DNA from: Devosia litorisediminis
GTDB lineage: Bacteria; Pseudomonadota; Alphaproteobacteria; Rhizobiales; Devosiaceae
Length of the DNA stretch: 64,000 nucleotides
Assembly (NCBI RefSeq): GCF_018334155.1
Contig: NZ_JAGXTP010000001.1
Coordinates: 620,001 to 684,000, forward strand
Reading direction: 5' to 3'
The notes under the pieces are model-generated. The model was given only the letters and a program-made list of their open reading frames with translations. It did not search any database and was not told the DNA's origin. Position 1 is the first letter of the stretch. The number at the start of each line of letters is the position of its first letter. The translations under genes were made by a program, and so were the position numbers. Below, piece after piece: positions 38,127 to 55,550 of the stretch.

Positions 38127-39836
38127 CTAGAACAGAAAATAGCGCTGCGCCATGGGCAACTCGGTGGCAGGTTCGCAGGTGAGCAATTCACCATCAGCGC
38201 GCACCTCATAGGTTTCGGGGTCGACGGCTATCTCGGGCGTCGCCGAATTGTGGACCATGGCAGCTTTGCCGATACCGCTTCGCGTGTTGCTCACAGGCAG
38301 CAGCTGCTTGTCGATCCCCAGCTTGTCGCGCAGGCCATCATCATAGGCGGCCTGGGAGACAAACGTGACAGAGGAGCGCGTCAGAAGCTTGCCGAACGAC
38401 GCGAACATAGGGCGATAGTGCATGGGCTGGGGCGTGGGGATCGACGCATTCGGATCACCCATGGGCGCTGCAGCAATCGAGCCGCCCAGCAGGATCATCT
38501 CGGGCTTCACCCCGAAAAAGGCCGGGTGCCACAATACAAGGTCGGCGCGTTTGCCAACGGCGATGGAGCCGATATGCTGGCTCATGCCGTGCGCGATGGC
38601 TGGATTGATGGTGTATTTGGCAATGTAGCGTTTGACGCGGAAATTGTCGTTCTCGCCGCTTTCCTCAGACAGGCGTCCGCGCTGGCGCTTCATCTTGTCG
38701 GCCGTCTGCCAGGTACGGATCAGCACTTCGCCCACCCGCCCCATGGCTTGGCTATCCGAAGAAATCACCGACAGTGCCCCCATATCGTGAAGGATGTCCT
38801 CGGCGGCGATGGTCTCCTTGCGAATGCGGCTTTCAGCAAAAGCCACATCCTCAGGGATCGACTGGTCAAGGTGGTGGCAGACCATGAGCATGTCGAGATG
38901 CTCGGCAATGGTATTGACCGTGTAGGGGCGCGTCGGATTGGTCGAGGAGGGGATAACGTTGGGAAGCCCTGCAACGCGCAAAATATCGGGCGCATGGCCG
39001 CCACCGGCGCCTTCGGTGTGGAAGGCGTGGATGGTTCGGCCCTTGAAGGCGGCGATGGTGTCTTCGACAAAACCGCTCTCATTGAGCGTGTCGGTGTGGA
39101 TCATCACCTGCACGTCGTAGTCATCGGCTACGCTAAGGCAATTGTCGATCGCGGCGGGCGTGGTGCCCCAGTCCTCGTGCAATTTGAGGCAGGAAGCACC
39201 AGCCAGTACCATTTCAGCAAGCGGCGCGGGCATGGATGCATTGCCCTTGCCGGCCAAAGCCAGGTTCATCGGAAAGCCGTCAAAACTCTCGATCATGCGC
39301 TGGATGTGCCAAGCGCCGGTACAAGTGGTCGCCAGTGTCCCGTGAGCGGGGCCGCTGCCGCCGCCCAACATGGTAGTGACGCCGCTCATCAGCGCTTCTT
39401 CGATCTGCTGGGGGGCGATGAAATGAATATGGGCGTCCATGCCCCCGGCGGTCAGGATGCGTCCTTCCCCGGCGATAGCCTCGGTGGAGGGGCCGATGAT
39501 GATGTTGACGCCGGGCTGGGTATCGGGATTGCCTGCCTTGCCGATGGCCGCGATCTTGCCGTCCTTGAGTCCGACGTCTGCCTTGTAGATGCCGGTCGCG
39601 TCGACAATCAGGGCATTGGTGATCACCGTATCAACGGCACCTTCTGCACGGGTGCGCTGACTCTGGCCCATGCCGTCGCGTATGACCTTGCCGCCACCAA
39701 ATTTCACCTCTTCGCCATAGGTGGTGAAGTCGTTCTCCACCTCAATGAACAGCTCGGTATCGGCCAGGCGAACCTTGTCGCCGGTGGTTGGGCCATACAT
39801 GTCGGCATAGGTGGCGCGCGAGATACGAGCGGGCAT
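38127..39836 (-). CDS. ureC: Urease alpha subunit
   Basis: UreC holds the di-nickel centre that hydrolyses urea to ammonia and carbamate. The 569-residue protein has the nickel ligand block [12 protein letters not shown], the carbamylated lysine in [10 protein letters not shown] (Lys218), [12 protein letters not shown], the [13 protein letters not shown] block and the flap His in MVCHHLD. All key residues look intact. Order on the minus strand is ureD-ureA-ureB-orf-ureC. Confidence 0.98.
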
Positions 39837-39859
39837 GGTGTCCTCGTTCAGATGCAGCC

Positions 39860-40252
39860 CTAGCTGGGCTTGGCTTGAGTTCGATAATTCTTGAGTGCGG
39901 CTTCGATTACCTGATCGAGCAGGGCCGCGCCGGCCTTGGTGGTGTCCTGCTGGGCATTGGTGGAAGCCAGCGACAGGGCAAGAGCCTGCAGCGCATATGC
40001 GTGACGCCCCTTTTCTGCGTGGACTGAGCTATTGCCTTCGGCGTCAATCTGCTGGAGGAGGGCAATGATGTCGGCATCGGTCAGGGTCGATTTAAAACCG
40101 GCCCAGCTCTGGGTATCTCGAATGGTGCATAGACGATCGGCACCAGAGCCGAGCAGGAACATGGCTTCGCCGTCATCCATGCCAGCGGAGTGCAGGTCGG
40201 AAACGACGGCGGTCAGTTCGGCGAGTAGTTCGGTTTCAGCTTCGGTGGTCAT
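39860..40252 (-). CDS. Hypothetical urease-operon protein between ureB and ureC
   Basis: I do not recognise a domain in this acidic, Ala- and Leu-rich, probably helical 130-residue protein. It has no signal peptide or membrane segment. ATG 40252 has GGAG 6 bases upstream. It lies 60 bases after ureB and 23 before ureC, inside the structural operon. Small ORFs of unknown function are known between ure genes in rhizobia, so an accessory or assembly role is plausible but unproven. Confidence 0.75.
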
Positions 40253-40312
40253 GATTGGCTCCATGGGTCTGTTGCGCGCCCTTTTATGGGCATTTGCGGC
40301 ATCCGCACAGAG

Positions 40313-40621
40313 TTAGTCGAGCTTCCCCATAATTTGCTGTCGAAAGCCGAAAACGGCGCGATCTCCGCTCAGGGGGATCAGGCGAACTTCACGGGCCTGA
40401 CCAGGCTCGAAACGCACAGCGGTTCCTGCAGCGATGTCGAGCCGCATGCCGCGGGCCTTTTCACGATCAAAAGACAGCCCCGCATTGGCTTCAAAGAAGT
40501 GGTAGTGCGAGCCGATCTGTACTGGGCGGTCTCCGGTGTTGGAAACCTCCAAGGTGATCTGGGCTGCACCAACATTAAGTTCGATATCGCCCGGCTGGGT
40601 GATGATTTCGCCTGGGATCAT
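40313..40621 (-). CDS. ureB: Urease beta subunit
   Basis: The 102-residue UreB starts with [16 protein letters not shown] and contains [22 protein letters not shown], the family hallmark, then [18 protein letters not shown]. It packs against UreA and UreC in the trimeric urease. The separate ureA and ureB arrangement is the usual bacterial one. It lies 6 bases after ureA. Confidence 0.97.
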
Positions 40622-40627
40622 GATGGC

Positions 40628-40930
40628 CTACCGGATGGGTTCGTGAACGGTGACGAGCTTGGTGCCGTCTGGGAAGGTCGCTTCGACCTGAATGTCGTGG
40701 ATCATCTCGGCTATGCCGTCCATGACCTGTGCCCGCGTGATGATGTGAGCGCCTGCTTCCATCAATTCCGCGACGGGACGGCCATCGCGGGCGCCCTCGA
40801 CAACGAAATCTGTGATTAGCGCAATTGCTTCTGGATGGTTGAGCTTGACGCCACGCTCGAGGCGTTTGCGGGCCACTATGGCAGCCATGGCGATCAGCAG
40901 TTTGTCTTTTTCACGCGGTGTCAGGTTCAT
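40628..40930 (-). CDS. ureA: Urease gamma subunit
   Basis: The 100-residue UreA begins [20 protein letters not shown] and continues with [14 protein letters not shown] and the C-terminal [18 protein letters not shown], all characteristic. It is a structural subunit without catalytic residues. It follows ureD by 8 bases. Confidence 0.97.
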
Positions 40931-40938
40931 GGCGGGTC

Positions 40939-41796
40939 CTATAGATGCCAGAGGCGAGGCAATGTGCCGGCGCCAGAGAGCTCAGCCAGAATTGGAACGA
41001 TCAGGCGCCGTAGCGCAAGACCTGTTTGAGCCAAAGCGCGCACAACTAGGCGTTCCCCATTCGCGCTGGCGGCAATACGACCATCCGTAGGGAGGACTTC
41101 GCGCAGGCGCGCCAAGGCGATCGCACCGGCGTCGGCATTGGGCGCGACATGCAGCACAGTGGCAAAAGCCCGCTTACCGGCCAGTAGCGACAGTCCAGCG
41201 CGTTCCGCAACAGTGCCGTCCAAGCGGGTGGCTTCAGCGTGGAGCAGTCTGCCACTGCGTCGGACGCGCCAATTGTCGCGCAGCTGGGCATCAAGTGCTA
41301 GTTCACCCATTGCGTCGCGACCCAGAAGGATAGCTTCCACGGCAGTCAGGCTGGCGCCAGCGGCCAGATCGATATTGATGCGCCGGTCGAGCTGGCTGCT
41401 AGCGAACAAGATCGTTTCCTGTGGCAGCCAGTCGAGATGGGCATTCTTGCCGACATTGAGAGTAGTGCGGACGGTAGCGGGGCCGCCCAGCGATCGGTAG
41501 ATGCGTTCGCACGCCTGCGTGGTCAACACCGCTTTGCCATTGTCAGCGATATCCGCGGTCCAGTCCATCTGATCGCCGCCGGTCAGGCCTCCAGCGGTGT
41601 TGATCAACACTGCTTCGAGTGCATTGCTATGGGTGTGAGGCAGGCGGATCTTGGCGCAGCCATCCTGATAGAGACGATTGATACGGGTGACGTTGTCACC
41701 CTGTTTTGTGCTGAGGCGACCGGCGCCACGAGCACGTTGCATCGTATGATGAAAAACGTGATCAGGTGAAATGGATTGTGCAGCAACCAAACTCAT
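40939..41796 (-). CDS. ureD: Urease accessory protein UreD
   Basis: UreD (UreH) docks apo-urease and channels nickel in the UreDFG complex. The 285-residue protein has [12 protein letters not shown], the family hallmark, and [11 protein letters not shown], then [12 protein letters not shown] chose ATG 41796 with GGGGAA about 10 bases upstream; ATG 41814 would add six residues and lacks a clear site. It is the first gene of the leftward urease operon, divergent from a small secreted protein gene. Confidence 0.93.
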
Positions 41797-41858
41797 ATCC
41801 GCGCATTTCCCCATCGAGCCAACGCTCTACGACCATAATAAATTAAAGGCTGATAGAT

Positions 41859-42230: not shown

Positions 42231-42935
42231 CTAGACCATCAAATGGCGGCGGACATCGGGCAGATCGAGATCGCTGGCGGGGCCGGCGTGCTGGATTTCA
42301 CCGCGATCCATAACATAGATATCGTCGGCGATTTCCCGGCAGAAGTCGAGGAACTGCTCGACCAACAGAATGGTCATGCCTTTCTCGTCCCGCAGGAATT
42401 GAAGGGCCCGACCGATGTCCTTGATGATGGACGGCTGAATGCCTTCAGTCGGCTCGTCGAGCACCAGAACCTTGGGGCGGGTGACGAGTGCGCGGCCAAT
42501 GGCCAACTGCTGCTGTTGTCCTCCAGAGAGGTCGCCACCGCGCCGGCCCAGCATGGATTTGAGCACCGGAAATAGTTCGAAGATGTATTCAGGGATGTTA
42601 CGGTCAGAGCGTTTTAGACCCGCAAACCCAGTTTCAAGGTTCTCGCGTACCGTGAGCAGGGGAAATATCTCGCGTCCCTGAGGAACATAACCAATGCCCA
42701 TACGCGCCCGTTTGTAGGGCGGGGATTTGCGCAGGACGGCATCGCCGAAGCGGATGTCTCCAGCGGAGATATTGTGCACGCCGGTGACGGCGCGCAGTGT
42801 CGATGACTTGCCCACGCCATTGCGGCCCAGGACAGCGGTGATACGTCCCGGCTTGCACTCAATGGAAACAGATTTAAGCGCCTGCGCCGCGCCGTAGTGC
42901 AGGTCGATCGTGTCGATGGAAAGCGCGGTGCTCAT
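42231..42935 (-). CDS. urtE: Urea ABC importer ATPase UrtE
   Basis: The 234-residue LivF-type ATPase has Walker A (GRNGVGKSS), signature LSGGQQQQLAIGRAL and Walker B VLVLDEPTEGIQP. The GRNGVGK and EGIQPSII wording is typical of UrtE. With UrtD it drives urea uptake by UrtBC. It overlaps urtD by 4 bases and is the last gene of the urt operon. Confidence 0.95.
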   Translation of the reverse strand: MSTALSIDTIDLHYGAAQALKSVSIECKPGRITAVLGRNGVGKSSTLRAVTGVHNISAGDIRFGDAVLRKSPPYKRARMGIGYVPQGREIFPLLTVRENLETGFAGLKRSDRNIPEYIFELFPVLKSMLGRRGGDLSGGQQQQLAIGRALVTRPKVLVLDEPTEGIQPSIIKDIGRALQFLRDEKGMTILLVEQFLDFCREIADDIYVMDRGEIQHAGPASDLDLPDVRRHLMV

Positions 42936-43690
42936 CGTCCCAGATACCTCTCGATGACAACCGGATTGGCGCTGACCTGATCAAGTGTGCCCTCCGCCAG
43001 AACCGAGCCCTCGGCGAGGCATGTGACACGCGAGCCAAGCTCACGCACAAAGCTCATATCGTGTTCGACCACTACTACCGAGCGGGTTTTGGCAATTTCG
43101 CGCAGCAGTTTAGCCGTTTCGACGGTCTCGGCGTCCGTCATGCCCGCCACCGGTTCGTCGACCAGAAGCAGCTTGGGGTCCTGAGCCAACAGCATGCCAA
43201 TTTCGAGCCACTGTTTCTGGCCATGGCTAAGGTCGGCAGCCAGTTCATCCTTACGTGGGAGCAGGCGGACCGTTTCGAGAATTTCCGTGATGCGCGCAAT
43301 ATCGGGATCGTCAGCGCTGTAGAACAGTGTAGCAAAGACACCGCGGGGCTTTTTCAAGGCCATCTCGATATTGTCCCAGACTGTCTGGCTTTCGAATACC
43401 GTCGGTTTCTGAAACTTGCGACCAATGCCCAGATTGGCAATGGCGGCCTCGTCGAGCTTGGTCAGATCGGTGCGGCCGTCAAACAGTACCTGGCCATCAT
43501 CGGGGCGGGTCTTGCCGGTGATGATGTCCATCATAGTGGTCTTGCCCGCGCCATTAGGGCCGATTATCGCCAGCATTTCAGCGGGGTGGACGATGATGGA
43601 CAGATTGTTGATGGCCTTGAAGCCATCAAAGGCCACTGAGACGCCGTCGAGATAGAGCATGGTGTCAGAATTTTCGGCAGTTCCAGCCAT
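42932..43690 (-). CDS. urtD: Urea ABC importer ATPase UrtD
   Basis: The 252-residue LivG-type ATPase has Walker A GPNGAGKTT, signature LSHGQKQWLEIGMLL, where LSHGQ replaces LSGGQ as is usual in UrtD, and Walker B LLLVDEPVAGM. The start is ATG 43690 with GGAG upstream. It lies 3 bases after urtC. Confidence 0.95.
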   Translation of the reverse strand: MAGTAENSDTMLYLDGVSVAFDGFKAINNLSIIVHPAEMLAIIGPNGAGKTTMMDIITGKTRPDDGQVLFDGRTDLTKLDEAAIANLGIGRKFQKPTVFESQTVWDNIEMALKKPRGVFATLFYSADDPDIARITEILETVRLLPRKDELAADLSHGQKQWLEIGMLLAQDPKLLLVDEPVAGMTDAETVETAKLLREIAKTRSVVVVEHDMSFVRELGSRVTCLAEGSVLAEGTLDQVSANPVVIERYLGR

Positions 43691-43693
43691 GAC

Positions 43694-44869
43694 TTACTCC
43701 GCCGGCTTGGGTTCGGGGTCGACGCCAGCTTCGACCTGCATGGGGGTGGGTGCATCGCGGTCGTGCTGTTCGCGCTTGGTCGTGGCCGCGCGATATTGGC
43801 CGATCAGGCCGACAATACCCTTTGGTAGAAACAGCGTGGTGACGACAAACAGTGCGCCCAGGGCAAACAGCCAGTACTCGGGAAATGCACCGGTGAAATA
43901 GGATTTGCCGACATTGACCAGAATGCCGCCCAGGATGGGGCCGACAATGGTCCCGCGACCGCCCACGGCAGTCCAGATGACCACTTCAATGGAATTGGCA
44001 GGCTCGAATTCGGAAGGGTTGATGATGCCGACCTGGGGTACGTAAAGTGCCCCGGCAATGCCGGCGATGATCGCCGAAACGACAAAGGCGAAGAGTTTGA
44101 CGTATTCGACGCGATAGCCAAGGAAGCGGGTGCGGCTTTCTGCGTCACGCACGGCGACCATGACCTTGCCGAGCTTGGAATTGACGATCATTGAACAGAC
44201 CAGGACGGCAAGGGCCAGCGCAATTGCGGACGCCGCAAACAGCGCTGAGCGGGTGCCGGTATCCTGCACGGAGGCGCCCAGAATGTCCTTGAAATCGGTC
44301 AGGCCGTTATTGCCGCCGAAGCCCATATCGTTGCGGAAAAAGGCCAGCAGCAGGGCATAGGTCATGGCCTGGGTGATGATGGAAAGATAGACGCCGGTTA
44401 CGCGGCTGCGGAAGGCCAGAAAACCGAAGACAAAGGCGAGCAGGCCGGGGACCACGATAACCATCAGCATGGCGAACCAGAAATTGTCCATGCCGTACCA
44501 ATACCAGGGCAGCTCCTTCCAGTTCAGGAAGACCATGAAGTCAGGCAGGATCGGATTGGCATAGACGCCGCGGGTGCCGATCTGGCGCATCAGATACATG
44601 CCCATGGCGTAGCCGCCGATGGCAAAGAAGGCGCCGTGGCCCAGCGAGAGAATGCCGCAATAGCCCCAGACCAGATCCAGCGCGAGGGCCAGCATGGCAA
44701 AAGTCAGGTACTTGCCGAGCAGGGGAATGGCATAATTGGGCAGATGCAGCGGATGCCCGTCAGGTAGCACCAGATTTGACAGGGGCACCAGAATTGCTAC
44801 CAGCAGAAGAATGGCAACCAGCCAAATGGCCTTCTTGTCCAGAGCGCGGAACAGAGCCTGGGTAATCAT
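43694..44869 (-). CDS. urtC: Urea ABC importer permease UrtC
   Basis: The 391-residue LivM-type permease has about nine membrane segments and the typical GYCGILSLGHGAFFAIGGYAMG stretch near residue 75. The cytoplasmic end is charged. It overlaps urtB by 4 bases. Length and neighbours match UrtC rather than a branched-chain amino-acid permease. Confidence 0.94.
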   Translation of the reverse strand: MITQALFRALDKKAIWLVAILLLVAILVPLSNLVLPDGHPLHLPNYAIPLLGKYLTFAMLALALDLVWGYCGILSLGHGAFFAIGGYAMGMYLMRQIGTRGVYANPILPDFMVFLNWKELPWYWYGMDNFWFAMLMVIVVPGLLAFVFGFLAFRSRVTGVYLSIITQAMTYALLLAFFRNDMGFGGNNGLTDFKDILGASVQDTGTRSALFAASAIALALAVLVCSMIVNSKLGKVMVAVRDAESRTRFLGYRVEYVKLFAFVVSAIIAGIAGALYVPQVGIINPSEFEPANSIEVVIWTAVGGRGTIVGPILGGILVNVGKSYFTGAFPEYWLFALGALFVVTTLFLPKGIVGLIGQYRAATTKREQHDRDAPTPMQVEAGVDPEPKPAE

Positions 44870-46497
44870 GCTTCGACAGACCTTCCCTTGAGCGCGAAGA
44901 GCCCGCGGGGACGGCGCTGAATGAACAGGATGATGAGAACAAGAATGATGATCTTGCCCAGCACTGCGCCCGCATAGGGCTCAATGAACTTGTTGGCGAT
45001 ACCCAGCGTCAGCGCGCCGACAAAGGTGCCCCACAGATTGCCCACCCCGCCAAAGACCACAACCATGAAGCTGTCGATGATGTAGCCCTGACCCAGATTG
45101 GGCGAGACATTGCCGATCTGGCTGAGGGCTACGCCGGCCAGACCCGCTACGCCCGAGCCCAAACCAAAGGTCAGTGCATCGACCAGCGGCGTGCGGATGC
45201 CCATGGCCGAAGCCATGCGCCGGTTCTGGGTGACGGCCCGCATATGGAGGCCGATGGCTGTGTATTTGAGCACCAGCAAGAGGGCGGCGAAGACCATGGC
45301 GGCGAAAATCACGATGTAGAAGCGGTTCCAGGTGATGGCGAGGCCGCCCAGATCGAAGGAGCCTGACATCCAGGTCGGGTTGCCGACTTCGCGGATATTG
45401 GCGCTGAAAATGGTCTGCACGCCCTGCTGGATGATCAGCGACAGGCCCCAGGTGGCCAACAGAGTTTCAAGTGGACGGCCATAGAGAAAGCGAATGACAC
45501 CGCGTTCAATGATGATGCCGATCAGACCGGTGACGAGAAAGGCCAGGGGAAGGGCAATGGCCAGTGACCAGTCAAAAAGGCCAGGATAATTCTGGCGAAT
45601 TATCTCCTGCACCACAAATGTGGTGTAGGCGCCGAGCATGACCATTTCGCCATGGGCCATGTTGATAACGCCCATCACACCGAAGGTGATGGCCAGTCCA
45701 ATAGCCGCGAGCAGCAGTACCGAGCCCAGCGAGACACCAAACCAGACGTTTTGGGCAACATCCCACGCAGCCTGATCGCGGGCCAACCCTTCAAGGGCGG
45801 CGGCAATGGCGGGCTGCACTTCGGCTGGTGCGCCTGCTTGCGCGGTGGTCAGCATGTTGAGTGCGTCACGCCCGCCAATGGCGCGCACTGTCGGCACCGC
45901 GGCTTGCCAGTCCTCCAGCGTTGCGTTGGGCGATTTAAGAATGATGGCAGCCCGGGCCTGTCGCATGACACGCTCGATGTCTGTGCTGGTTTCGGCGGCG
46001 ATCGCGCTATCGAGCAGTTCGAGATTGTCGGGATCCGCATCGCGCAGGATGGACTGCGCAGCAGCGAGGCGGACATCATTTTTCTGGCTGAGCAGGGTCA
46101 TCTGACCGATGGCGGTGCGCAATGTGCGGCGCAGGCTGTTGTTGACCTTTACCTTGTCGAGCTTGACGTCCGCCAGGGTTGGCAGTTCTTCGCCGGTGAC
46201 CGGATCGGAGCGAACACCTTTGCCACCAGACTGCGCAGTGAAGACGGTCTTGCCGGTGGCTTCATCAACATAAAGTTCGCCTTCAAGCAGAACCCGAAGG
46301 ACCGGGACGGCTCGGGGATCACCACTGGCAACAAGCGCATCGATTGCGGTGGCGCGGTCTTTGAAGCTGCCCGGTGCCAAGGCATCGATCAGCGGTGTCA
46401 GCTCGGCGTCAGCGATCTGCGCCTGTGCACCTGATGAAATTCCAAGGGAAAGAACAAGGAAGAGCGCGATCGTCCGGAGTAATCTGATTGCGTTCAT
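44866..46497 (-). CDS. urtB: Urea ABC importer permease UrtB with N-terminal extension
   Basis: The 543-residue protein has a signal peptide (about 1-27), a soluble helical region of about 230 residues, and then a LivH-type membrane domain with GVMGVINMAHGEMVMLGAYT and RRMASAMGIRT. The soluble part contains VASGDPRAVPVLRVLLEGEL, which resembles HEAT-like repeats. UrtB proteins of this length are common in Proteobacteria, so the extension is a family trait, not a local fusion. ATG 46497 has GAGG upstream. Confidence 0.93.
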   Translation of the reverse strand: MNAIRLLRTIALFLVLSLGISSGAQAQIADAELTPLIDALAPGSFKDRATAIDALVASGDPRAVPVLRVLLEGELYVDEATGKTVFTAQSGGKGVRSDPVTGEELPTLADVKLDKVKVNNSLRRTLRTAIGQMTLLSQKNDVRLAAAQSILRDADPDNLELLDSAIAAETSTDIERVMRQARAAIILKSPNATLEDWQAAVPTVRAIGGRDALNMLTTAQAGAPAEVQPAIAAALEGLARDQAAWDVAQNVWFGVSLGSVLLLAAIGLAITFGVMGVINMAHGEMVMLGAYTTFVVQEIIRQNYPGLFDWSLAIALPLAFLVTGLIGIIIERGVIRFLYGRPLETLLATWGLSLIIQQGVQTIFSANIREVGNPTWMSGSFDLGGLAITWNRFYIVIFAAMVFAALLLVLKYTAIGLHMRAVTQNRRMASAMGIRTPLVDALTFGLGSGVAGLAGVALSQIGNVSPNLGQGYIIDSFMVVVFGGVGNLWGTFVGALTLGIANKFIEPYAGAVLGKIIILVLIILFIQRRPRGLFALKGRSVEA

Positions 46498-46529
46498 CGT
46501 TGGCCTCTGGCGTCTCGTTCGGGGGTGGA

Positions 46530-46552
46530 CGAGGGCGGTCAAGCCGCCCTCG
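46530..46552 (-). repeat. Stem-loop between urtA and urtB
   Basis: CGAGGGCGG / CCGCCCTCG forms a 9-base stem with a 5-base loop in the 76-base urtA-urtB gap. No T-run follows. It probably protects the urtA message so that binding protein is made in excess over the membrane parts. Confidence 0.6.
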
Positions 46553-46573
46553 CCAATGGTGTGGGACTGGCGG

Positions 46574-47872
46574 TTACATCGCCGTGGCGCCACACATCTC
46601 GGTTTCGGTGTTGTAGTTGCCGCACGAGATTGGTGCAGTCCAATCGGCTTCGATCATCTTGGATTCGGGTAGGAAGTCGGACCAGGCATCGCCGGGGACA
46701 AGTTCGCTTTCCGAGACGACTTCGAACTGGCCGTCAGCCTGAATTTCACCGATCAGAACAGGCTTGGTCAGGTGATGATTGGGCAGCATGGTAGCGATGC
46801 CACCGGTCAGGTTCGGGGTTTCCAGGCCAATGATGGAGTCCAGAACGGCATCGGTATCGGTGGTTCCGGCCTTTTCGACAGCCTGAACCCAGAGGTTAAA
46901 GCCGATGACGGTAGCTTCCATTGGGTCGTTGGTGACCTTGTCGGCATCGTTCATGAAGGTCTGCCAGGCAGAGATGAACTCTTCATTTTCAGGGGTGTCG
47001 ACGGACTGGAAGTAGTTCCAAGCTGCCAGATGGCCCACCAGTGGGGTGGTGTCGAATCCAGCGAGTTCTTCTTCGCCAACGGAGAAGGCCACGACCGGAA
47101 TGTCCTCGGCCTTGATGCCCTGATTGGCGAGTTCCTTGTAGAATGGCACGTTGGCGTCACCATTGATGGTGGAGACAACGGCAGTCTTCTTGCCGGTCGA
47201 GCCGAAGGTCTTGATGTCGGACACGATGGTCTGCCAATCGGAGTGACCGAATGGCGTGTAGTTGATCATAATATCTTCTTTGGCCACGCCCTTGTCCATG
47301 AGGTACTGCTCAAGGATCTTGTTGGTGGTCTGCGGATAGACGTAGTCAGTACCGGCCAGCACCCAGCGCTCCACGCCTTCGCTTTCCATCAGGTAGTCGA
47401 CAGCAGGGATTGCCTGCTGGTTGGGAGCGGCGCCGGTGTAGAATACGTTGCGCTGGCTCTCTTCGCCTTCGTACTGCACGGGGTAGAACAAGATCGAGTT
47501 CAGCTCTTCAAAGACGGGCAGAACCGATTTGCGCGATGATGACGTCCAGCAGCCGAACACGGCTGCAACGCCGTTCACTTCGATCAGTTCACGCGCCTTT
47601 TCGGCAAACAGCGGCCAGTCTGAGGCAGGATCAACGACGACGGCTTCAAGCTGCTTGCCCAGGAGGCCGCCCTTCTTGTTCTGCTCGTCGATCAAGAACA
47701 GCATGGTGTCCTTGAGCGTGGTCTCGGAGATCGCCATCGTGCCCGAAAGCGAATGCAGGACGCCGACCTTGATGGTCTCGTCCTGTGCGAATGCGGGAAC
47801 CGTGGCCGTCATGGAAAGGCTGCCGGCCATGGCCGCAGCAAGCAGAGCGCTCTTGGCGCCGAAGTTCTTCAT
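46574..47872 (-). CDS. urtA: Urea-binding periplasmic protein UrtA
   Basis: The 432-residue protein has a signal peptide ending near PAFAQ and then a LivJ-type binding fold beginning IKVGVLHSLSGTMAISE, which is the UrtA hallmark, and FGCWTSSSRKSVLPVFE. It binds urea, or short amides, for UrtBCDE. It is first in the leftward urt operon and divergent from the NCS1-fused sensor kinase. The 239-base gap between them holds an inverted repeat at 47963-47978. Confidence 0.96.
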   Translation of the reverse strand: MKNFGAKSALLAAAMAGSLSMTATVPAFAQDETIKVGVLHSLSGTMAISETTLKDTMLFLIDEQNKKGGLLGKQLEAVVVDPASDWPLFAEKARELIEVNGVAAVFGCWTSSSRKSVLPVFEELNSILFYPVQYEGEESQRNVFYTGAAPNQQAIPAVDYLMESEGVERWVLAGTDYVYPQTTNKILEQYLMDKGVAKEDIMINYTPFGHSDWQTIVSDIKTFGSTGKKTAVVSTINGDANVPFYKELANQGIKAEDIPVVAFSVGEEELAGFDTTPLVGHLAAWNYFQSVDTPENEEFISAWQTFMNDADKVTNDPMEATVIGFNLWVQAVEKAGTTDTDAVLDSIIGLETPNLTGGIATMLPNHHLTKPVLIGEIQADGQFEVVSESELVPGDAWSDFLPESKMIEADWTAPISCGNYNTETEMCGATAM

Positions 47873-47962
47873 GTGATCGTCCCTCTATGCAAATTGAGCC
47901 CCAAGCCACCAAGGGAGGCGCTTGTTGGGGGGACTGTGGGACAGTTTGTTAACGGGGCCCTA

Positions 47963-47978
47963 TACGTCGATTGACGTA
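47963..47978. promoter_or_regulatory. Inverted repeat in the urtA / sensor-kinase divergent region
   Basis: TACGTC-GATT-GACGTA is a perfect 6-base inverted repeat with a 4-base spacer, 91 bases from the urtA start and 134 from the kinase start. Its size suits a dimeric regulator such as the receiver-LuxR protein encoded downstream. No binding evidence is available from sequence. Confidence 0.45.
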
Positions 47979-48111
47979 GCTGCGGCTCTGGTGTCTGCGC
48001 ATTGGTCTCGCAAAAGGCTCAAAAACCTAGTGTTTCCAAGCAATACCGTGCTAACAAGCATGTGCCGATTTATTGTGCGGTCGACGAAACTGATTAACAA
48101 CTAGACGGTTC

Positions 48112-51100
48112 ATGGCGCGTCAACGCATCATTCCCATCCGCCGCGAGTATAACCGTTGGGTCGCAAACCAGACCCTCGAGGACTATGCGCTGCGCTTCAC
48201 CGCCAAGTCGGCGCGCCGATTTTCCAACGATCGGATCTCGCAGACGGCCATTGGTGCCATCTCGTTCCTGGCACTGGAGGCAATTGGTGGCGCCATTACG
48301 CTGAGCTACGGGACCACCAACGCCATCATCGCCATTGTGGTGGCGTCACTTGCCATCCTGCTGATTGGCTTGCCAATCGCGCGCTATGCGACAAGGCACG
48401 GTGTTGATGTCGACCTGCTGACGCGCGGCGCCAGTTTTGGCTACATCGGTTCGACGATCACCTCCCTGATCTATGCCAGCTTTACTTTCATCCTGTTCGC
48501 CATTGAAGCCTCGATCATGTCGAGCGCGCTGCAACTGGCGTTCGGAATCCCGCTGTGGCTGGGATACATAATCAGCGCCGTGGTCGTCATACCCTTGGTG
48601 ACGCACGGTGTTCAGATGATCAGTCGGTTTCAACTGATAACCCAGCCAGTCTGGGTCGTGCTCAACATCCTGCCGTTCTTCTTCATAGCCTTTCTTGACT
48701 GGGACAAGTTCGATCTGTGGCGCAGCTTTGCGGGTCTGGGTGCGCCGGAGGGCGTCGCTGGCAGCATCGCGCCGTTCGACCTGGCCAAGTTTGGGGCGGC
48801 TTCAGCCGTCATCCTGGCGCTGATGACGCAGATTGGCGAACAGGTCGACTTCCTGCGTTTTCTGCCCGCAGAAGGCGTCAGCAAGTGGCGACACAAGGTG
48901 GCAATCTTTCTTGCAGGCGCTGGTTGGGTAGTTGTCGGCGCGCCGAAACTGCTGGCTGGCTCGTTCCTCGCGTACCTAGCCCTTTCGAGCGGGGTATCAC
49001 CCGAGCATGCGTCCGAGCCCGGTCACATGTATGCGGTGGCTTTCGGCTACATGGTACCCAACGAGTTCATGGCGCTGATGCTGATGGCCGTTTTCGTGGT
49101 GATTAGCCAGCTCAAGATCAACGTGATGAATGCCTATGCCGGCTCGCTGGCTTGGTCGAACTTCTTTTCACGTTTGACCCACAGCCATCCGGGGCGGGTT
49201 GTCTGGCTGCTGTTCAATGTCGCAATTGCGCTTCTGTTGATGGAATTGGGCATTTATCGGCTGCTCGAGGAAACCCTGGGTATCTTTTCCATCATCGCGA
49301 TGGCCTGGCTGTGCTCTATCTCGGCAGATCTGTTCGTGAACAAACCGCTTGGCCTTGCCCCGCCCGGCATCGAGTTTAAAAGGGCGCATCTCTACGACAT
49401 CAACCCGGTCGGTGTTGGCTCAATGCTGCTGGCCACGACTATTGCGTTGATGGCCCATTTTGGACTGTTTGGAGAGACTGCTGCAGCCCTTTCATCCTAT
49501 GTGGCGCTGGTTGTGGCCTTTGTCGCCTCGCCGACGATCGCATGGGCAACCAAGGGCAAATACTATCTGGCACGGAAGCCCCGCAAGCAGTGGCAGACGC
49601 TGGATTCGGTCACCTGTTCGATTTGCCAGCATCCTTTTGAGCCCGAGGACATGGCTTGGTGTCCTGCCTATGCGGCGCCGATCTGCTCGCTTTGCTGCTC
49701 TCTGGACGCGCGCTGCCACGATATGTGCAAACCGCACGCGCATTTTCGGGCCCAGACCCACGCCGTGGCAGCCAGCATTCTGCCTGAGTGGGCCATCGCC
49801 AAACTGCAAACCCGACTTGGGCGCTACAGCATTTCCATGGCCATTGCGGTCGCAATGCTGGGTGGTGCGCTCTGGCTTATCTATTATTTCGCGGCTGGCG
49901 CTGCGCCACATACCGCCGATGTTGTGGGAGGCACGCTGGCGGTGGTGTTCTTTGTGTTCGCCGTTACCGCAGGCATTATCACCTGGTTTCTTGTGCTGGC
50001 CCATGACAGTCGCCTCGTGGCCGAAGAAGAAAGCTCACGCCAGAATACGCTGCTTCTCAAGGAGATCGACGCGCATTCACGCACCGATGCTGCCTTGCAG
50101 CGTGCCAAAGAAAAGGCAGAAGCCGCCAATCAGGCCAAGAGCCGCTATGTTGTGGGCTTGAGCCATGAACTGCGGACGCCGCTCAACGCGGTGATGGGTT
50201 ATGCGCAGGTGCTTGAGAGGGATGCGGGCCTGCCGGAAAATCGGCGTGGCTCGGTACAGATCATTCGGCGCAGCGCCGAACACCTATCGGGCTTGATCGA
50301 TGGGTTGCTCGACATTTCCAAAATCGAGGCAGGACGCCTGCAGGTTTACTCCAACGAGATCAACATCCAGGACTTTCTCGATCAGATCGTTGACATGTTC
50401 AGTCTGCAAGCCAAGGCCAAAGGCTTGGAATTCCGCCACGAGCGCGCGCGCGCCTTGCCCACACATGTGCGCACCGACGAAAAACGTCTGCGGCAGATCC
50501 TGGTGAACCTTCTCTCGAACGCCATCAAATTCACCAATGAGGGTCATGTCAGCTTCAAAGTGGAGTACCGCAACCAGGTGGCCAATTTCGTCGTCGAAGA
50601 TAGCGGTACGGGCATTGCAGCTGGCGATATCGAGCACGTCTTTGAGCCCTTCGTACGCGGTGAGGCCGAGCGAAACCGGTTCGTGCCGGGTCTCGGGCTG
50701 GGTTTGACCATTACTAAGCTGCTTACCGAGACGCTGGGGGGTGAAATATCACTGACCAGCACCATTGACGTTGGAACGCGGTTTCAGGCGCGGTTGATGC
50801 TGAGCAAGGTGGAGCGACCACAGGCGGCACATGCCGATATTCGGCGCGTTGTTGGCTACAAGGGGCCTTCTCGAACGGTCATGGTGGTGGACGACAATGC
50901 AGACCATCGAGATCTTGTCCGAGAAATGCTCTCGCCTCTCGGCTTCGTGGTCCTGTCAGTCAAGGATGGGTCCGGTTGCCTGCAGGGCATTGAGGCGCAC
51001 AGACCGGATGTCTATTTTCTCGATATCCGCATGCCCGGCATGAATGGATGGGAGCTCGCGCAAGCCTTGCGGGATCGTGCTGTCGTTGCGCCGATCATAA

Positions 51101-51486
51101 TGCTATCGGCGAATATCGGCGATGGTGCTGGGCCCACCAACTCAGATGCAGGCCACACAGATACTCTGGCCAAGCCGTTTGAGCTCAATCAGTTGCTGGA
51201 AAAACTGGCGGCGCATCTGGCGCTGGAGTGGGATTACGCCGAGCAGGCTGTTGCAGCGTCCGAGAATGGTGCTTCGAAACTGCTGTCGCCGGGCGCTGAA
51301 CACTTGCGCGAACTGGTCAGTCTGGGGCAAATCGGGCATGTGCGTGGAATCGAGGCCAAGCTAAGTGAGCTGGCGCGCGATGCGGCCAACAGGCCGCTGG
51401 TGGATGCATTGTCGGCGCACCTGGCCGCCTTCGATTTCGAAAGTTATGCCGAACTCATTGAGCGGGTGAGCCATGAGCCGGATTGA
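48112..51486 (+). CDS. NCS1 permease-like sensor fused to histidine kinase and receiver
   Basis: This 1124-residue protein starts with a nucleobase-cation-symport-1-like domain of about 12 membrane segments (about 40-480; GVDVDLLTRGASFGYIGS is a typical block). A cysteine-rich segment follows (Cys502, 505, 517, 525, 528, 529, 535, 539), then two more membrane helices (about 573-635) and a coiled coil. The kinase core has the H box SHELRTPLN (His685), the N box and GTGIA/GLGLGLT ATP lid. The receiver carries Asp971 in FLDIRMPG, and a short helical tail ends the protein. It resembles transporter-fused kinases such as CbrA, but with an NCS1 module. It overlaps the next regulator gene by 14 bases. 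The ligand is unknown; purine, pyrimidine, hydantoin or allantoin types are guesses. Confidence 0.9.
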   Translation: MARQRIIPIRREYNRWVANQTLEDYALRFTAKSARRFSNDRISQTAIGAISFLALEAIGGAITLSYGTTNAIIAIVVASLAILLIGLPIARYATRHGVDVDLLTRGASFGYIGSTITSLIYASFTFILFAIEASIMSSALQLAFGIPLWLGYIISAVVVIPLVTHGVQMISRFQLITQPVWVVLNILPFFFIAFLDWDKFDLWRSFAGLGAPEGVAGSIAPFDLAKFGAASAVILALMTQIGEQVDFLRFLPAEGVSKWRHKVAIFLAGAGWVVVGAPKLLAGSFLAYLALSSGVSPEHASEPGHMYAVAFGYMVPNEFMALMLMAVFVVISQLKINVMNAYAGSLAWSNFFSRLTHSHPGRVVWLLFNVAIALLLMELGIYRLLEETLGIFSIIAMAWLCSISADLFVNKPLGLAPPGIEFKRAHLYDINPVGVGSMLLATTIALMAHFGLFGETAAALSSYVALVVAFVASPTIAWATKGKYYLARKPRKQWQTLDSVTCSICQHPFEPEDMAWCPAYAAPICSLCCSLDARCHDMCKPHAHFRAQTHAVAASILPEWAIAKLQTRLGRYSISMAIAVAMLGGALWLIYYFAAGAAPHTADVVGGTLAVVFFVFAVTAGIITWFLVLAHDSRLVAEEESSRQNTLLLKEIDAHSRTDAALQRAKEKAEAANQAKSRYVVGLSHELRTPLNAVMGYAQVLERDAGLPENRRGSVQIIRRSAEHLSGLIDGLLDISKIEAGRLQVYSNEINIQDFLDQIVDMFSLQAKAKGLEFRHERARALPTHVRTDEKRLRQILVNLLSNAIKFTNEGHVSFKVEYRNQVANFVVEDSGTGIAAGDIEHVFEPFVRGEAERNRFVPGLGLGLTITKLLTETLGGEISLTSTIDVGTRFQARLMLSKVERPQAAHADIRRVVGYKGPSRTVMVVDDNADHRDLVREMLSPLGFVVLSVKDGSGCLQGIEAHRPDVYFLDIRMPGMNGWELAQALRDRAVVAPIIMLSANIGDGAGPTNSDAGHTDTLAKPFELNQLLEKLAAHLALEWDYAEQAVAASENGASKLLSPGAEHLRELVSLGQIGHVRGIEAKLSELARDAANRPLVDALSAHLAAFDFESYAELIERVSHEPD

Positions 51487-52402
51487 AAAGGATCAGGACA
51501 TCGTCCTGCTGGTCGACGACTCCCCGGAGTCGCTCGGTTTCCTGACTGAGGCGCTCGAGCAATCCGGGGTCACTGTACTGGTGGCCCGCAGTGGCGAAAC
51601 AGCGTTGAACATTGCCGTGCGCGTCGCGCCCGATGTGGTATTGATGGATGCTGTGATGCCGGGCCTGGATGGGTTTGAAACCTGTCGGCGGCTCAAGGCC
51701 ATGGCAACGCTTACCCATGTGCCGGTGATTTTCATGACCGGGCTGACCGAGACCGAGCATATCGTACATGCGCTCGAAAGCGGCGGCGTTGATTACCTCT
51801 CCAAGCCGATCAATGTTGACGAATTGCGTGCTCGCATAAGGGTGCATCTGGCCAATGCTCGGCGGGCGCAAAGTGCGCGGATTGCGCTTGACGCCGCGGG
51901 GCGGCATCTGGTGGCGTTCGGTCGTGATGGAGTCGTATTGTGGTCGACGCCACAAAGCACGCGATTGCTGGAGCAATCGGGGGTGGACGTGCGGGGGTCT
52001 GATGAAATGTCGGCCCGTTTTCTGGCATGGCTTCTGCAGCGCGGCGATGATCTGGCTCCCGGTAGCGGATTTGAACTCGCTTTGGCAGGTGCGCCAGAGC
52101 TTCAGTACGCGTTTCTCGGGGTTGTTGGTGGCGACGAATACCTGTTCCGTCTGGCCCGTGCGCAGGCTGAAGGTCAGGAGGACGTCCTGCGGCAGCAGTT
52201 TGGTTTGACCCTGCGCGAGAGTGATGTCTTGCTGTGGATCTCACGCGGTAAATCGAACCGGGATATCGGCGATATCCTTGGGCTCAGCCCCCGCACAGTG
52301 AACAAGCACCTCGAGCAGGTTTATACCAAGCTGGGCGTAGAGAACCGGGCCTCGGCGGCGATCAAGGCAATTCAGGCCTTGCAGGCCCTGTTTGAACTCT
52401 AG
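51473..52402 (+). CDS. Response regulator: receiver plus LuxR-type DNA-binding domain
   Basis: The 309-residue protein has an N-terminal receiver (about 8-125; acidic pair in LVDDSPES, phospho-acceptor Asp59 in LMDAVMPG, Lys in LSKPINV). A middle segment of about 100 residues is not recognised, possibly PAS-like. The C-terminal LuxR helix-turn-helix (LTLRESDVLLWISRGKSNRDIG with SPRTVNKHLEQVYTKLGV) closes it. It overlaps the hybrid kinase gene by 14 bases, so the two form a pair. Likely targets are the flanking importer operons (urt and the NMT1-type ABC), each of which has inverted repeats upstream. Confidence 0.92.
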   Translation: MSRIEKDQDIVLLVDDSPESLGFLTEALEQSGVTVLVARSGETALNIAVRVAPDVVLMDAVMPGLDGFETCRRLKAMATLTHVPVIFMTGLTETEHIVHALESGGVDYLSKPINVDELRARIRVHLANARRAQSARIALDAAGRHLVAFGRDGVVLWSTPQSTRLLEQSGVDVRGSDEMSARFLAWLLQRGDDLAPGSGFELALAGAPELQYAFLGVVGGDEYLFRLARAQAEGQEDVLRQQFGLTLRESDVLLWISRGKSNRDIGDILGLSPRTVNKHLEQVYTKLGVENRASAAIKAIQALQALFEL

Positions 52403-52754: not shown

Positions 52755-52797
52755 GCACATAAAATACTCACAATATCTTTTAGGCTAATTTATGTGC
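52755..52797. promoter_or_regulatory. Long inverted repeat upstream of the NMT1-type binding-protein gene
   Basis: GCACATAAA (52755-52763) and TTTATGTGC (52789-52797) are perfect 9-base arms with a 25-base spacer; centres are 34 bases apart, about three helical turns. A TTGCAC (52753-52758) resembling a -35 box overlaps the left arm. The binding-protein ATG is 66 bases downstream. It is a plausible operator for the LuxR-type regulator or the MarR protein. Confidence 0.5.
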
Positions 52798-52863
52798 GAT
52801 TTTTCTTGCGCGCATGCACACACTGCGCTTGTGTTCGGGCATCATCACCCAGGGGACGTACAC

Positions 52864-53886
52864 ATGCTCAATCGCAGACTTCTCATTTCCACATTCGCCG
52901 TTGCCTTTGCCGGATTGTCGGCGCTGCCGGCGGTGGCGCAGACAGCGATCAAGTTTACACTCGACTGGAAGTATGAGGGGCCAGCCGCCGGCTTCCTGCT
53001 GGCGCTGGACAAGGGGTACTTCAAGGATGAAGGCCTCGACGTCACCATTGATAGCGGGAATGGCTCTGTCGATGCCATTCCGCGCGTCGCTACGGGTGCC
53101 TATCAGATGGGTTTCGGCGACATCAATTCAGTCATCAAGTTTCTCGATGAGGACCCTGCGCAGCCGGTCAAGGCCGTGATGATGGTCTATGAAAAGCCGG
53201 TCTTTGCCGTGGTCGGGCGCAAGTCGCTTGGTGTTACCGAGGATCCGAAGTCTCTTGAAGGCAAGAAGCTGGGTGCGCCGCCACCGGACGGTGCGTTCGC
53301 CCAGTGGCCGGCCTTTGTCGAAGCTGCCGGAATCGATACGGCGACGATCGCCATAGAGTCCATCGGCTTCCCCGTCCGCGAACCCATGCTGGCGTCGGGT
53401 GATGTGGATGCGGTGTTCGGTTTCGCCTTCTCGGTGATCCTCAACCTGAAAGCCAATGGTGTTCCAGACGAGGATATTGCGACCATCCTGTTCGCCGACA
53501 ATGGGCTGAACCTTTATGGCAATGCCGTGCTGGTCAACGAAGATTTCGCCGCAGAAAACCCAGAGGCTGTGAAGGGTTTCCTACGCGCTCTGATCAAGGG
53601 CTTTTCCGACGCGGTTGCAGACCCTGCCGCCGGCGTGGAGGCTGTGCTGGCACGCAATGAGATTCTCAACAGCGACATCGAACTGGAGCGGCTTGAAATG
53701 GCCAATTCGATGAATATCAAGACGCCCTATGTGATCGAAAACGGCTTTGGCGATGTCGACATGGCGCGTCTTGCAGCATCTATCGACACGCTGAAAATCT
53801 CGATGGGGCTGACTGGGGCAGTCGCGGCAGACGATGTGTTTGACGCTCAGTACCTGCCACCTGCTGCAGAGCGCATGCTGCCCTAA
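52864..53886 (+). CDS. ABC importer substrate-binding protein, NMT1/SsuA/ThiY type
   Basis: The 340-residue protein has a signal peptide (cleavage near PAVAQ). An NMT1-like fold follows: FTLDWKYEGPAAGFLLALDKGYFKDEGLDV, GFGDINSVIKF and the GKKLGAPPPDGAF block. Relatives bind thiamine pyrimidine precursors, riboflavin, taurine, alkanesulfonates or other small molecules; the exact ligand is not readable. ATG 52864 has AGGGG about 9 bases upstream; the frame is open to 52792 but that part lies on the inverted repeat. Context with an NCS1-type sensor suggests a nitrogen-rich heterocycle. Confidence 0.88.
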   Translation: MLNRRLLISTFAVAFAGLSALPAVAQTAIKFTLDWKYEGPAAGFLLALDKGYFKDEGLDVTIDSGNGSVDAIPRVATGAYQMGFGDINSVIKFLDEDPAQPVKAVMMVYEKPVFAVVGRKSLGVTEDPKSLEGKKLGAPPPDGAFAQWPAFVEAAGIDTATIAIESIGFPVREPMLASGDVDAVFGFAFSVILNLKANGVPDEDIATILFADNGLNLYGNAVLVNEDFAAENPEAVKGFLRALIKGFSDAVADPAAGVEAVLARNEILNSDIELERLEMANSMNIKTPYVIENGFGDVDMARLAASIDTLKISMGLTGAVAADDVFDAQYLPPAAERMLP

Positions 53887-53905
53887 GCCCTAATTCAAGC
53901 AACGG

Positions 53906-53935
53906 CCCGGGCGGTGACGTCCGGGTTAATTTTTT
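53906..53935 (+). terminator. Intrinsic attenuator between binding protein and ATPase genes
   Basis: CCCGGGCG-GTGA-CGTCCGGG is an 8-base stem (one G-U pair) with a GNRA-type loop, followed by TTAATTTTTT. It lies 19 bases after the stop of the binding-protein gene and should stop part of the transcripts, giving more binding protein than ATPase and permease. Confidence 0.7.
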
Positions 53936-53949
53936 CGGGGAGGCCGAGG

Positions 53950-54735
53950 ATGGCTCTGGTCAGTATCGACAATGTGGACATGCGCTATGGCGGCCCAGGC
54001 GGGACGCTGGCGGTCAGTGGGTTGACCATGCGGATTGAACGTGGCGATTTCGTCGCGGTGGTCGGGCCTTCTGGTTGCGGCAAGTCCACGTTGATGAAAT
54101 TGGTAACCGGGCTGCATGTCCCCCAGGAGGGGACGGTAATTGTTGCGGGCCACCAGGTGACCAGGCCGGTCTCCATTGTCGGTATGGCTTTCCAGAACCC
54201 CACCATGCTGCCCTGGCGGACAACGCTGGAAAACGTGCTTCTGCCACTCGAGATCGTCGAGAAGCACAGGCACCGCTTGCGCGCCCACAAAAAGGAATAC
54301 GTCGAAAAGGCAGAACACCTGCTTGAAACTGTGGGACTCAAAGGGTTTGGCGAGAAATTTCCCTGGCAGTTGTCTGGCGGAATGCAGCAAAGGGCCAATC
54401 TATGTCGGGCGCTGATCCATGAGCCGGAATTGCTAATGCTGGACGAGCCGTTCGGCGCGCTCGATGCCTTTACACGCGAAGAGTTGTGGTGCGTCATTCG
54501 CGACCTGCACGCTGCCCAGGATGTGACGATTGTGCTCGTTACCCACGATCTGCGGGAATCAGTATTCCTGGCCGACAAGGTACTGGTCATGAGCGCGCGT
54601 CCGGGGCGCGTGGTTGCAGAACACGAAGTGCCGTTCACGCGGCCGCGTCAGCTCGATATTCTTTATGACAAGGCGTTCAACGACATGGTGCAAGCGCTGC
54701 ACGGTGAGATTGCCACGGCGAGGGCCGCAGCATGA
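53950..54735 (+). CDS. ABC importer ATPase (SsuB/TauB type)
   Basis: The 261-residue ATPase has Walker A GPSGCGKST, a Q-loop in AFQNPTMLPWRTTLENV, signature LSGGMQQRANLCRAL, Walker B LLMLDEPFGALDAFTRE and the switch THD. ATG 53950 has GGGAGG just upstream. It overlaps the permease gene by 4 bases. It powers the NMT1-type importer. Confidence 0.94.
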   Translation: MALVSIDNVDMRYGGPGGTLAVSGLTMRIERGDFVAVVGPSGCGKSTLMKLVTGLHVPQEGTVIVAGHQVTRPVSIVGMAFQNPTMLPWRTTLENVLLPLEIVEKHRHRLRAHKKEYVEKAEHLLETVGLKGFGEKFPWQLSGGMQQRANLCRALIHEPELLMLDEPFGALDAFTREELWCVIRDLHAAQDVTIVLVTHDLRESVFLADKVLVMSARPGRVVAEHEVPFTRPRQLDILYDKAFNDMVQALHGEIATARAAA

Positions 54736-55550
54736 CCAATATCGAGAGCGCCACTGCCAACGCCACCCTGCCGCCACCCAAGAGCTTTAACATCAACTGG
54801 CTGGTGCTGGCGCCGTGGCTCTACACTATTGCCCTGTTTGTGGTCTGGGAGATTGTGGTCAGATCGATGGGTATCTCCCAAACAATCCTGCCAGCGCCGA
54901 GCCGAATTGCCGAAGCGATCGTGCAGTATTGGTCCCCGATCTGGAAGAACTCACTGCAGACTCTCTACACGACCGTGCTTGGTTTTCTGATTGCTGTAAT
55001 TGCCGGCCTGGGGCTTGGGTTGTTCATTGGCTGGTCCAAGGCGATCTATGCCGGGCTCTACCCGATCATGATCGGCTTCAATGCTATTCCCAAGGTGGCA
55101 TTGGTGCCCATTCTGGTAATCTGGTTCGGTATCGGGACGGTGCCGGCGGTGCTGACCGCCTTCCTGATTTCGTTCTTTCCCATCGTGGTCAATGTGGCCA
55201 CAGGTCTGGCGACAATCGAACCGGAGACAGAAGACGTGCTGCGCGCGCTTGGCGCCAAGAAACTCGACATCATGCTCAAGGTCGGCATTCCGCGCTCGAT
55301 GCCATATTTCTTCGGCTCGCTGAAGATCGCCATCACACTGGCGTTTGTCGGTTCGGTGGTGTCGGAAACCGTCGCCTCCAATTCGGGCCTGGGCAATATG
55401 ATGAGTTCGGCGCAGAGCCAGTTCAATGTGCCGCTGGTGTTCGCGGGACTCATGATGCTCGCCGTCGAGGGCATCGCAATGTATGCTCTCATGGCCTGGA
55501 TCGAAAGGCGCATGACCGGCTGGGCCCATCGCTCGACGATGTCTAACTAA
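54732..55550 (+). CDS. ABC importer permease (SsuC/TauC type)
   Basis: The 272-residue inner-membrane protein has about six segments and an EAA loop (EPETEDVLRALGAKKLDIMLKVGIPRSMPY). IGFNAIPKVALVPILVIWFGIG is a block common in the SsuC/TauC group. Its 3' end overlaps the convergent MarR gene by 8 bases. Confidence 0.94.
   Translation: MTNIESATANATLPPPKSFNINWLVLAPWLYTIALFVVWEIVVRSMGISQTILPAPSRIAEAIVQYWSPIWKNSLQTLYTTVLGFLIAVIAGLGLGLFIGWSKAIYAGLYPIMIGFNAIPKVALVPILVIWFGIGTVPAVLTAFLISFFPIVVNVATGLATIEPETEDVLRALGAKKLDIMLKVGIPRSMPYFFGSLKIAITLAFVGSVVSETVASNSGLGNMMSSAQSQFNVPLVFAGLMMLAVEGIAMYALMAWIERRMTGWAHRSTMSN

Follow-up and report, generated by a model that had tools for sequence, protein, structure and literature searches.

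A hybrid histidine kinase with an NCS1-derived membrane domain as a candidate receptor for urea or small amides in Devosia litorisediminis and its relatives

What does a histidine kinase with a transporter-like head detect, and which genes does it control? The question is raised by a locus in the 64,000-nucleotide stretch of Devosia litorisediminis DNA analysed here (contig NZ_JAGXTP010000001.1, positions 620,001 to 684,000; hereafter the window), in which one open reading frame (ORF) joins an NCS1-like domain to a hybrid kinase and overlaps the gene of a LuxR-type regulator. The original prediction, made from the letters alone, was that uptake or binding of a nucleobase- or hydantoin-like compound is coupled to control of urea and heterocycle use. 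We now think it fairly probable that the pair is a dedicated two-component system for urea or small amides, in which an NCS1-derived receptor would activate uptake and catabolic genes. The parts of the pair are as follows.

48112..51486, + strand: hybrid sensor kinase, 1124 amino acids, ATG start, with NCS1-type membrane domain, 8-Cys module, two helices, HisKA, HATPase_c and receiver
48178..49575, + strand: NCS1-type (LeuT-fold) membrane domain, residues ~23-488 (structure model, fold search, PF02133 link through the free-standing protein of locus L175)
49615..49728, + strand: 8-Cys module, residues 502-539 (C502, C505, C517, C525, C528, C529, C535, C539)
49813..50088, + strand: two helices, residues 568-597 and 599-659 (structure model)
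50137..50802, + strand: HisKA (His685) and HATPase_c (Pfam, residue check)
50878..51207, + strand: C-terminal receiver of the kinase (Asp971; Pfam, residue check)
51473..52402, + strand: partner response regulator with receiver (Asp59), middle segment and LuxR/GerE DNA-binding domain (Pfam, residue check)

The kinase gene is no chance ORF, since 80 other genomes have it at 67% identity or more and a homologue search returned at least 8000 clusters. The exact ORF, Pfam and the structure model bear out the predicted order of NCS1-like domain, Cys-rich segment, two helices, kinase and receiver, as well as the overlap with the regulator ORF, which amounts to 14 nucleotides (nt). Pfam places HisKA at kinase residues 676-741, HATPase_c at 788-897 and Response_reg at 923-1032, and in the regulator Response_reg at 11-123 and GerE at 245-298; with the expected phospho-acceptors all in place, the two proteins have the domains and residues of a hybrid HisKA kinase and LuxR/NarL-type regulator pair. 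Between membrane domain and HisKA, Pfam names no PAS or HAMP, nor does it name STAC in the kinase, a domain for which the library may hold no model. The ~120 residues between the receiver and LuxR domain of the regulator (~124-244) likewise have no Pfam name; a degenerate PAS-like domain there is a mere guess.

Pfam and NCBIfam gave nothing useful on the sensor half: the whole kinase is unmatched by PF02133 at E ≤ 0.1, and residues 1-495 match no Pfam family at E ≤ 1, because the domain has drifted past the PF02133 model. Where Pfam is mute, structure reveals the NCS1 fold that had been predicted. A model of residues 1-660, with a mean predicted local distance difference test (pLDDT) score of 83.7, has CodB and Mhp1 as its top matches in a fold search, with some 400 residues matched to the NCS1-type LeuT fold, and is not SLC5-type. 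The L175 protein supplies an intermediate joining the sensor domain to NCS1 by sequence: it is 32% identical to the sensor domain (E 1.8e-33) and scores 36.4 bits against PF02133 (cut-off 23.5). Judged by the model, the domain is best called NCS1-derived and not an NCS1 transporter. The gene of the free-standing L175 permease itself adjoins a carbon-nitrogen hydrolase gene and one for a binding protein that resembles UrtA but scores under the UrtA cut-off (L175:7944-12368), possibly forming a small-amide or nitrile uptake cluster.

An alignment with 16 free permeases brings out what may set the sensor apart. Positions 56 and 125 are Phe/Tyr in 16/16 free permeases and Glu and Thr in 73/73 sensor sequences, an exchange which argues for a small, non-aromatic ligand. 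Glu56, Lys279 (in most sensors) and Asn369 are polar residues of predicted helices unlike those of all 16 free permeases, while Asp246, Arg249, Gln333, Asn337 and Asn340 are common to both groups; Gln240, Glu243 and Gln244 are left out of the evidence because the alignment of transmembrane helix 6 with the free permeases is gapped. By sequence, one profile found zero matches in the PDB and the best 60 of the 418 matches to another were only kinase and receiver chains, so that Mhp1 numbering is not available for the pocket residues and the argument from the pocket is alignment-based.

The Cys-rich segment holds eight cysteines that are invariant in 71/71 aligned homologues. Among 398 sampled Pseudomonadota genomes, scored for at most 14 candidates per genome, its profile matches in 53, of which 52 bear the kinase, with the match always inside a long open frame; the sole match outside them is weak and lies in a frame of 28 amino acids. 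The module is a hallmark of the kinase family, occupying the place of STAC in SLC5 kinases. It probably binds zinc. Its PDB sequence matches are weak, the best being a zinc-finger protein (E 0.0058); the best Foldseek match has E 0.61, and weak RING/PHD-like matches are listed, the RING-like rows at E 1.2-1.9. A further look covered the helices mainly, and no fold is claimed for the module. The second helix (599-659) is predicted as a single long helix that extends in the direction of the kinase dimerisation domain. Of the 398 genomes, 61 match the sensor half in some way and 52 have the full fusion, at 57 places with the window counted in (rows with E below 1e-100), the same 57 that the 8-Cys scan gives; the 3.74 Mb D. 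litorisediminis genome has a single copy.

The neighbouring genes point to urea and small amides. In the window the proposed target, which the original prediction had noted as a flank, lies upstream of the kinase and divergent from it.

42231..47872, - strand: urtABCDE, urea ABC importer (NCBIfam over cut-off: UrtA TIGR03407, UrtB TIGR03409, UrtC TIGR03408, UrtD TIGR03411, UrtE TIGR03410)
47963..47978, no strand given: inverted repeat TACGTCGATTGACGTA, 16 bp, proposed as operator for the partner regulator; distances 91 nt (urtA start codon) and 134 nt (kinase start)

The 80 loci closest to the window kinase, out of at least 506 confirmed relatives, include a regulator homologue in 80/80 and a divergent upstream urtA in 79/80, the exception (L057) being contig-cut. 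As these are only the closest relatives, we added a distant set of 56 other kinase copies from the 398 genomes, which has an urtA-type gene in 45, the formamidase gene fmdA in 35 and ureC in nine, arranged as urtABCDE, as an urt-like importer usually with formamidase, or as urease. At least one of the three markers is present in 54 of the 56 fetched stretches and the other two (L131, L174) are contig-cut, so among these 136 loci no homologue with intact flanks was found to lack urea or amide genes, which would have spoken against the predicted link with nitrogen uptake. One representative (L124) has formamidase, aliphatic amidase, UrtA and UrtC over NCBIfam cut-offs. The other annotated neighbours are a liv importer, CysQ, an acyltransferase, a PAP2 protein and acetoacetate decarboxylase; part of the neighbours was annotated, and none of these acts on heterocycles. 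Urea or small amides are the common denominator of the neighbouring genes. In 54 of the 56 distant loci the regulator gene follows that of the kinase. The exceptions (L167, L169) have shorter kinases, with open frames of 899 and 894 amino acids, adjoining a separate receiver-HisKA-HATPase protein and fmdA; no LuxR regulator was found downstream, which indicates another wiring of the same sensor.

On a tree of 67 kinases labelled by operon type (fmd 37, urt 20, ure 7, none 3), labels change nine times, as against 26.3 in shuffles. Three of these changes are 'none' rows, which are contig-cut, and two 'urt' labels within the urease clade (L162, L172) are a product of the labelling rule, so we restrict the claim to urea-type kinases lying at no fewer than three separate places among the fmd-type ones.

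The second line of evidence is the inverted repeat, which in the window has the form TACGTC-N4-GACGTA. A blind dyad search upstream of the kinase recovered TACGT-N6-ACGTA in 44 of 136 regions (L174 was excluded for want of upstream DNA), where shuffling gave at most 3 for any dyad, and ATACGTC-N4-GACGTAT at no fewer than 11 of 14 matches occurs in 58/136 regions versus 27/2720 shuffled ones. An initial scan of the 400 nt before the kinase found the motif in 67/136 regions. That the motif might be wholly missing from many Rhizobium loci was ruled out, as in them the kinase is parted from urtA by intervening DNA, with the motif remaining near urtA. When whole loci are scanned, 80 of the 81 close loci, window included, and 42 of the 56 distant loci have a site outside the marker genes (in the loose form or with at least 12 of 14 matches). 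Where urtA and kinase form a divergent pair (124 loci), 113 loci have the loose form; its distance is 68-148 nt to urtA (quartiles 83-95) and 85-7092 nt to the kinase. Being steady from urtA and not from the kinase, the site belongs to the urtA promoter. Among palindromes of 120 permuted half-sites, TACGT is found in 80 loci, TACGC in 13 and every other in at most 3.

Control stretches upstream of other urtA genes bear on the specificity of the motif. It precedes urtA in 0/40 kinase-free genomes (stretches chosen by hand from the UrtA rows, mostly top rows with some skipped). Among 20 other urtA genes of kinase-bearing genomes, a hand-chosen subset of the rows available, it precedes 6/6 where a urease-linked kinase is present and 0/14 where there are fmd-type kinases only. 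Four of the six lie ~40-245 kb from the urease-linked kinase; in G142 and G158 the site-bearing urtA is ~11-12 kb upstream of the kinase with urt and urease genes in between, and G158, G225 and G379 hold an additional fmd-type kinase. The site is also found ahead of fmdA in six fmd loci (L137, L139, L146, L148, L150, L151); four of these (L146, L148, L150, L151) have two operator-like sites 22 nt apart before the urt-like operon and one before fmdA. In the D. litorisediminis genome the exact 16-mer occurs once, at the urtA promoter, and the two other loose sites fall inside ORFs that we take to be DNA-ligase-like and sugar-transferase-like, so no further regulon target is claimed. The TAC...GTA 7-2-7 layout resembles that of NarL sites. 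Conserved linkage and a shared promoter element both connect the pair with urea and amide genes, and the repeat is, on sequence grounds, most likely the operator of the partner regulator.

In the mechanism we propose, the NCS1-type domain would be a transporter turned receptor, or a signalling transporter, that binds urea and, in relatives, formamide or short amides. Binding would shift the LeuT-type fold, and the movement would be relayed through the 8-Cys module and the two helices to the HisKA dimer, with phosphate passing from His685 to Asp971 and/or to Asp59 of the regulator. The phosphorylated regulator may then occupy TACGTC-N4-GACGTA, ~85-95 nt upstream of urtA, and switch on urea import, perhaps with the urease genes behind urt; in relatives the same pair would govern an amide importer with formamidase, or urt and urease. 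Sequence cannot fix the ligand; what suggests urea or small amides is the linkage, the operator, a fold of substrate transporters and the aromatic residues exchanged at positions 56 and 125. As PF03069 found no formamidase match in the D. litorisediminis genome, urea would be the likeliest cue there.

Several observations weigh against this reading. Linkage and motif tie the regulator to urea and amide genes but do not speak to urea binding by the membrane domain itself, and the cue could be another; the pocket argument comes from an alignment and not from coordinates; and the 8-Cys module could be an additional, second input. Kinase and urtA can also lie well apart, their spacing exceeding 1 kb in 46 of 124 divergent loci. 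The loose form was not found in 11 of these 124 (L123, L137, L139, L141, L143-L145, L147, L149, L152, L153), several of which contain near-matches, nor was the motif found within 400 nt before the kinase in most urease-linked loci. A sigma-70 scan of the urtA-kinase gap (47850-48130) showed no consensus promoter, and a crude sigma-54 string search did not find the full consensus. Of the 398 genomes, 135 have a UrtA over cut-off and 52 have the kinase, so most urt operons work without it.

How, then, do other signals fare? The fusion of an NCS1 fold to a kinase and the tie to urea genes have stood, but the nucleobase- or hydantoin-like signal and the control of heterocycle use have not. A kinase that senses a nucleobase, hydantoin or allantoin-like compound, linking heterocycle use to urea use, would agree with the fold and with the distant sequence kinship to cytosine/allantoin-type permeases, and such compounds can yield urea on breakdown. 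We nevertheless consider it very improbable: the conserved partners identified are urt, formamidase/amidase and urease, with no heterocycle gene among the annotated neighbours; the aromatics of the free relatives at 56 and 125 are exchanged for Glu and Thr; L175, the best-matching free relative in the 398 genomes, adjoins a hydrolase gene and a UrtA-like protein; and PF02133 finds no free NCS1 permease in the D. litorisediminis genome. It is less far-fetched, if still unlikely, that the same operator control of urt and fmd answers to ammonia or nitrogen status, to membrane energy or ion state, or to a metal or redox cue through the 8-Cys module. Urea importers are often under nitrogen control, and the invariance of the eight cysteines and their restriction to this family, one weak match apart, would suit a second sensing site; yet each of the three operon types is marked by gene classes that act on urea or small amides, and a general nitrogen or metal cue would have no need of a substrate-transporter fold.

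A rather different possibility, compatible with the receptor we propose and to be entertained tentatively, is that the domain functions as a symporter of urea or amides and signals at the same time. The positions retained from free permeases (Asp246 to Asn340 above) are consistent with transport, and CbrA offers a precedent, histidine being transported through its SLC5 domain according to PMC13022988. The residues in which the sensor differs from all free permeases and the presence of a dedicated ABC urea importer beside the kinase speak for a receptor instead, as does Ks-Amt5, a transporter-made sensor which, as described in PMC5764959, lost transport.

Two further neighbours of the system lie in the window.

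38127..41814, - strand: urease genes downstream of urtE (ureC 38127-39836, TIGR01792 over cut-off; ureD 40939-41814, PF01774)
52792..55550, + strand: NMT1-type ABC importer, downstream of the regulator, a lineage-specific neighbour (Pfam/NCBIfam)

The urease genes possibly belong to the regulon. The NMT1-type importer, correctly predicted as a flank, is no conserved companion: it is found in 5/80 close loci, every one Devosia, and is ruled out as part of the system. In Rhizobium-type loci (L012, L049; also L119-L122) its place downstream of the regulator is taken, on the opposite strand, by a branched-chain amino acid (liv) importer operon. UrtB of the window (44866-46593) has an N-terminal extension of ~280 residues ahead of the permease domain, with weak HEAT-repeat matches.

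The closest parallels are the SLC5/STAC kinases CbrA, CrbS and RpuS, which likewise, in the accounts cited, join a LeuT-fold transporter domain to a HisKA-type kinase on the same working idea (PMC13022988, PMC9100948, PMC5715377). The partner of CrbS is the LuxR-family regulator CrbR, which depends on an inverted repeat ahead of the genes it controls (PMC5715377), as proposed for the window pair. Unlike them, the window kinase is NCS1-type, has the 8-Cys module between transporter and kinase with no PAS named by Pfam, and belongs to a family linked to urea and amide genes, where theirs are linked to histidine, acetate or pyruvate. Ks-Amt5, an ammonium sensor kinase of an anammox bacterium, is described as another nitrogen-compound transporter turned receptor, joined to its kinase without PAS, HAMP or STAC (PMC5764959); its fold is Amt, whereas the window family has the NCS1 fold and is found in 52 of 398 Pseudomonadota genomes. 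The ammonia sensor kinase GrtK is placed by its authors outside the ammonia transporter family (PMC12918730), and the S-component fold is reported as another transporter type re-used as a kinase sensor (PMC11109136), a paper on transporter-receptor links in whose main text a term search did not find 'NCS1'. The fmdCABDEF genes of Methylophilus methylotrophus, for import of urea and short amides and for formamidase, are the same kind of target and are induced by formamide and urea; the source gives their regulator only as a 'putative positive regulator' (PMC10781810). In Ectopseudomonas guguanensis G3 a hybrid kinase and LuxR-family regulator lie by a second urtABCDE, and the locus numbers put fmdA next; the source gives annotation, without sensor domain, operator or function (PMC13296017), and by this description the pair very likely belongs to the window family. 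With CodB and Mhp1 the sensor domain has the fold in common, but it is fused to a kinase, is unmatched by PF02133 and has polar residues of its own. No recognisable functional study of such an NCS1-kinase protein was found among the papers listed from open-licence PubMed Central text.

Urea is a major nitrogen source in soil and sea. For bacteria with this kinase system, a likely urea receptor, its regulator and their DNA site are here named together, which makes urea sensing directly testable. Beyond D. litorisediminis, we lean somewhat towards a widespread, uncharacterised class of urea or short-amide receptors, with the NCS1 fold as kinase sensing head and its own 8-Cys coupling module and operator, moved several times between operons for urea import, urease and formamidase. 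If this is true, NCS1 would join SLC5 and Amt among the transporter types re-used as kinase sensors, the pair would be a candidate urea/formamide biosensor, and the system would explain how such bacteria notice urea.
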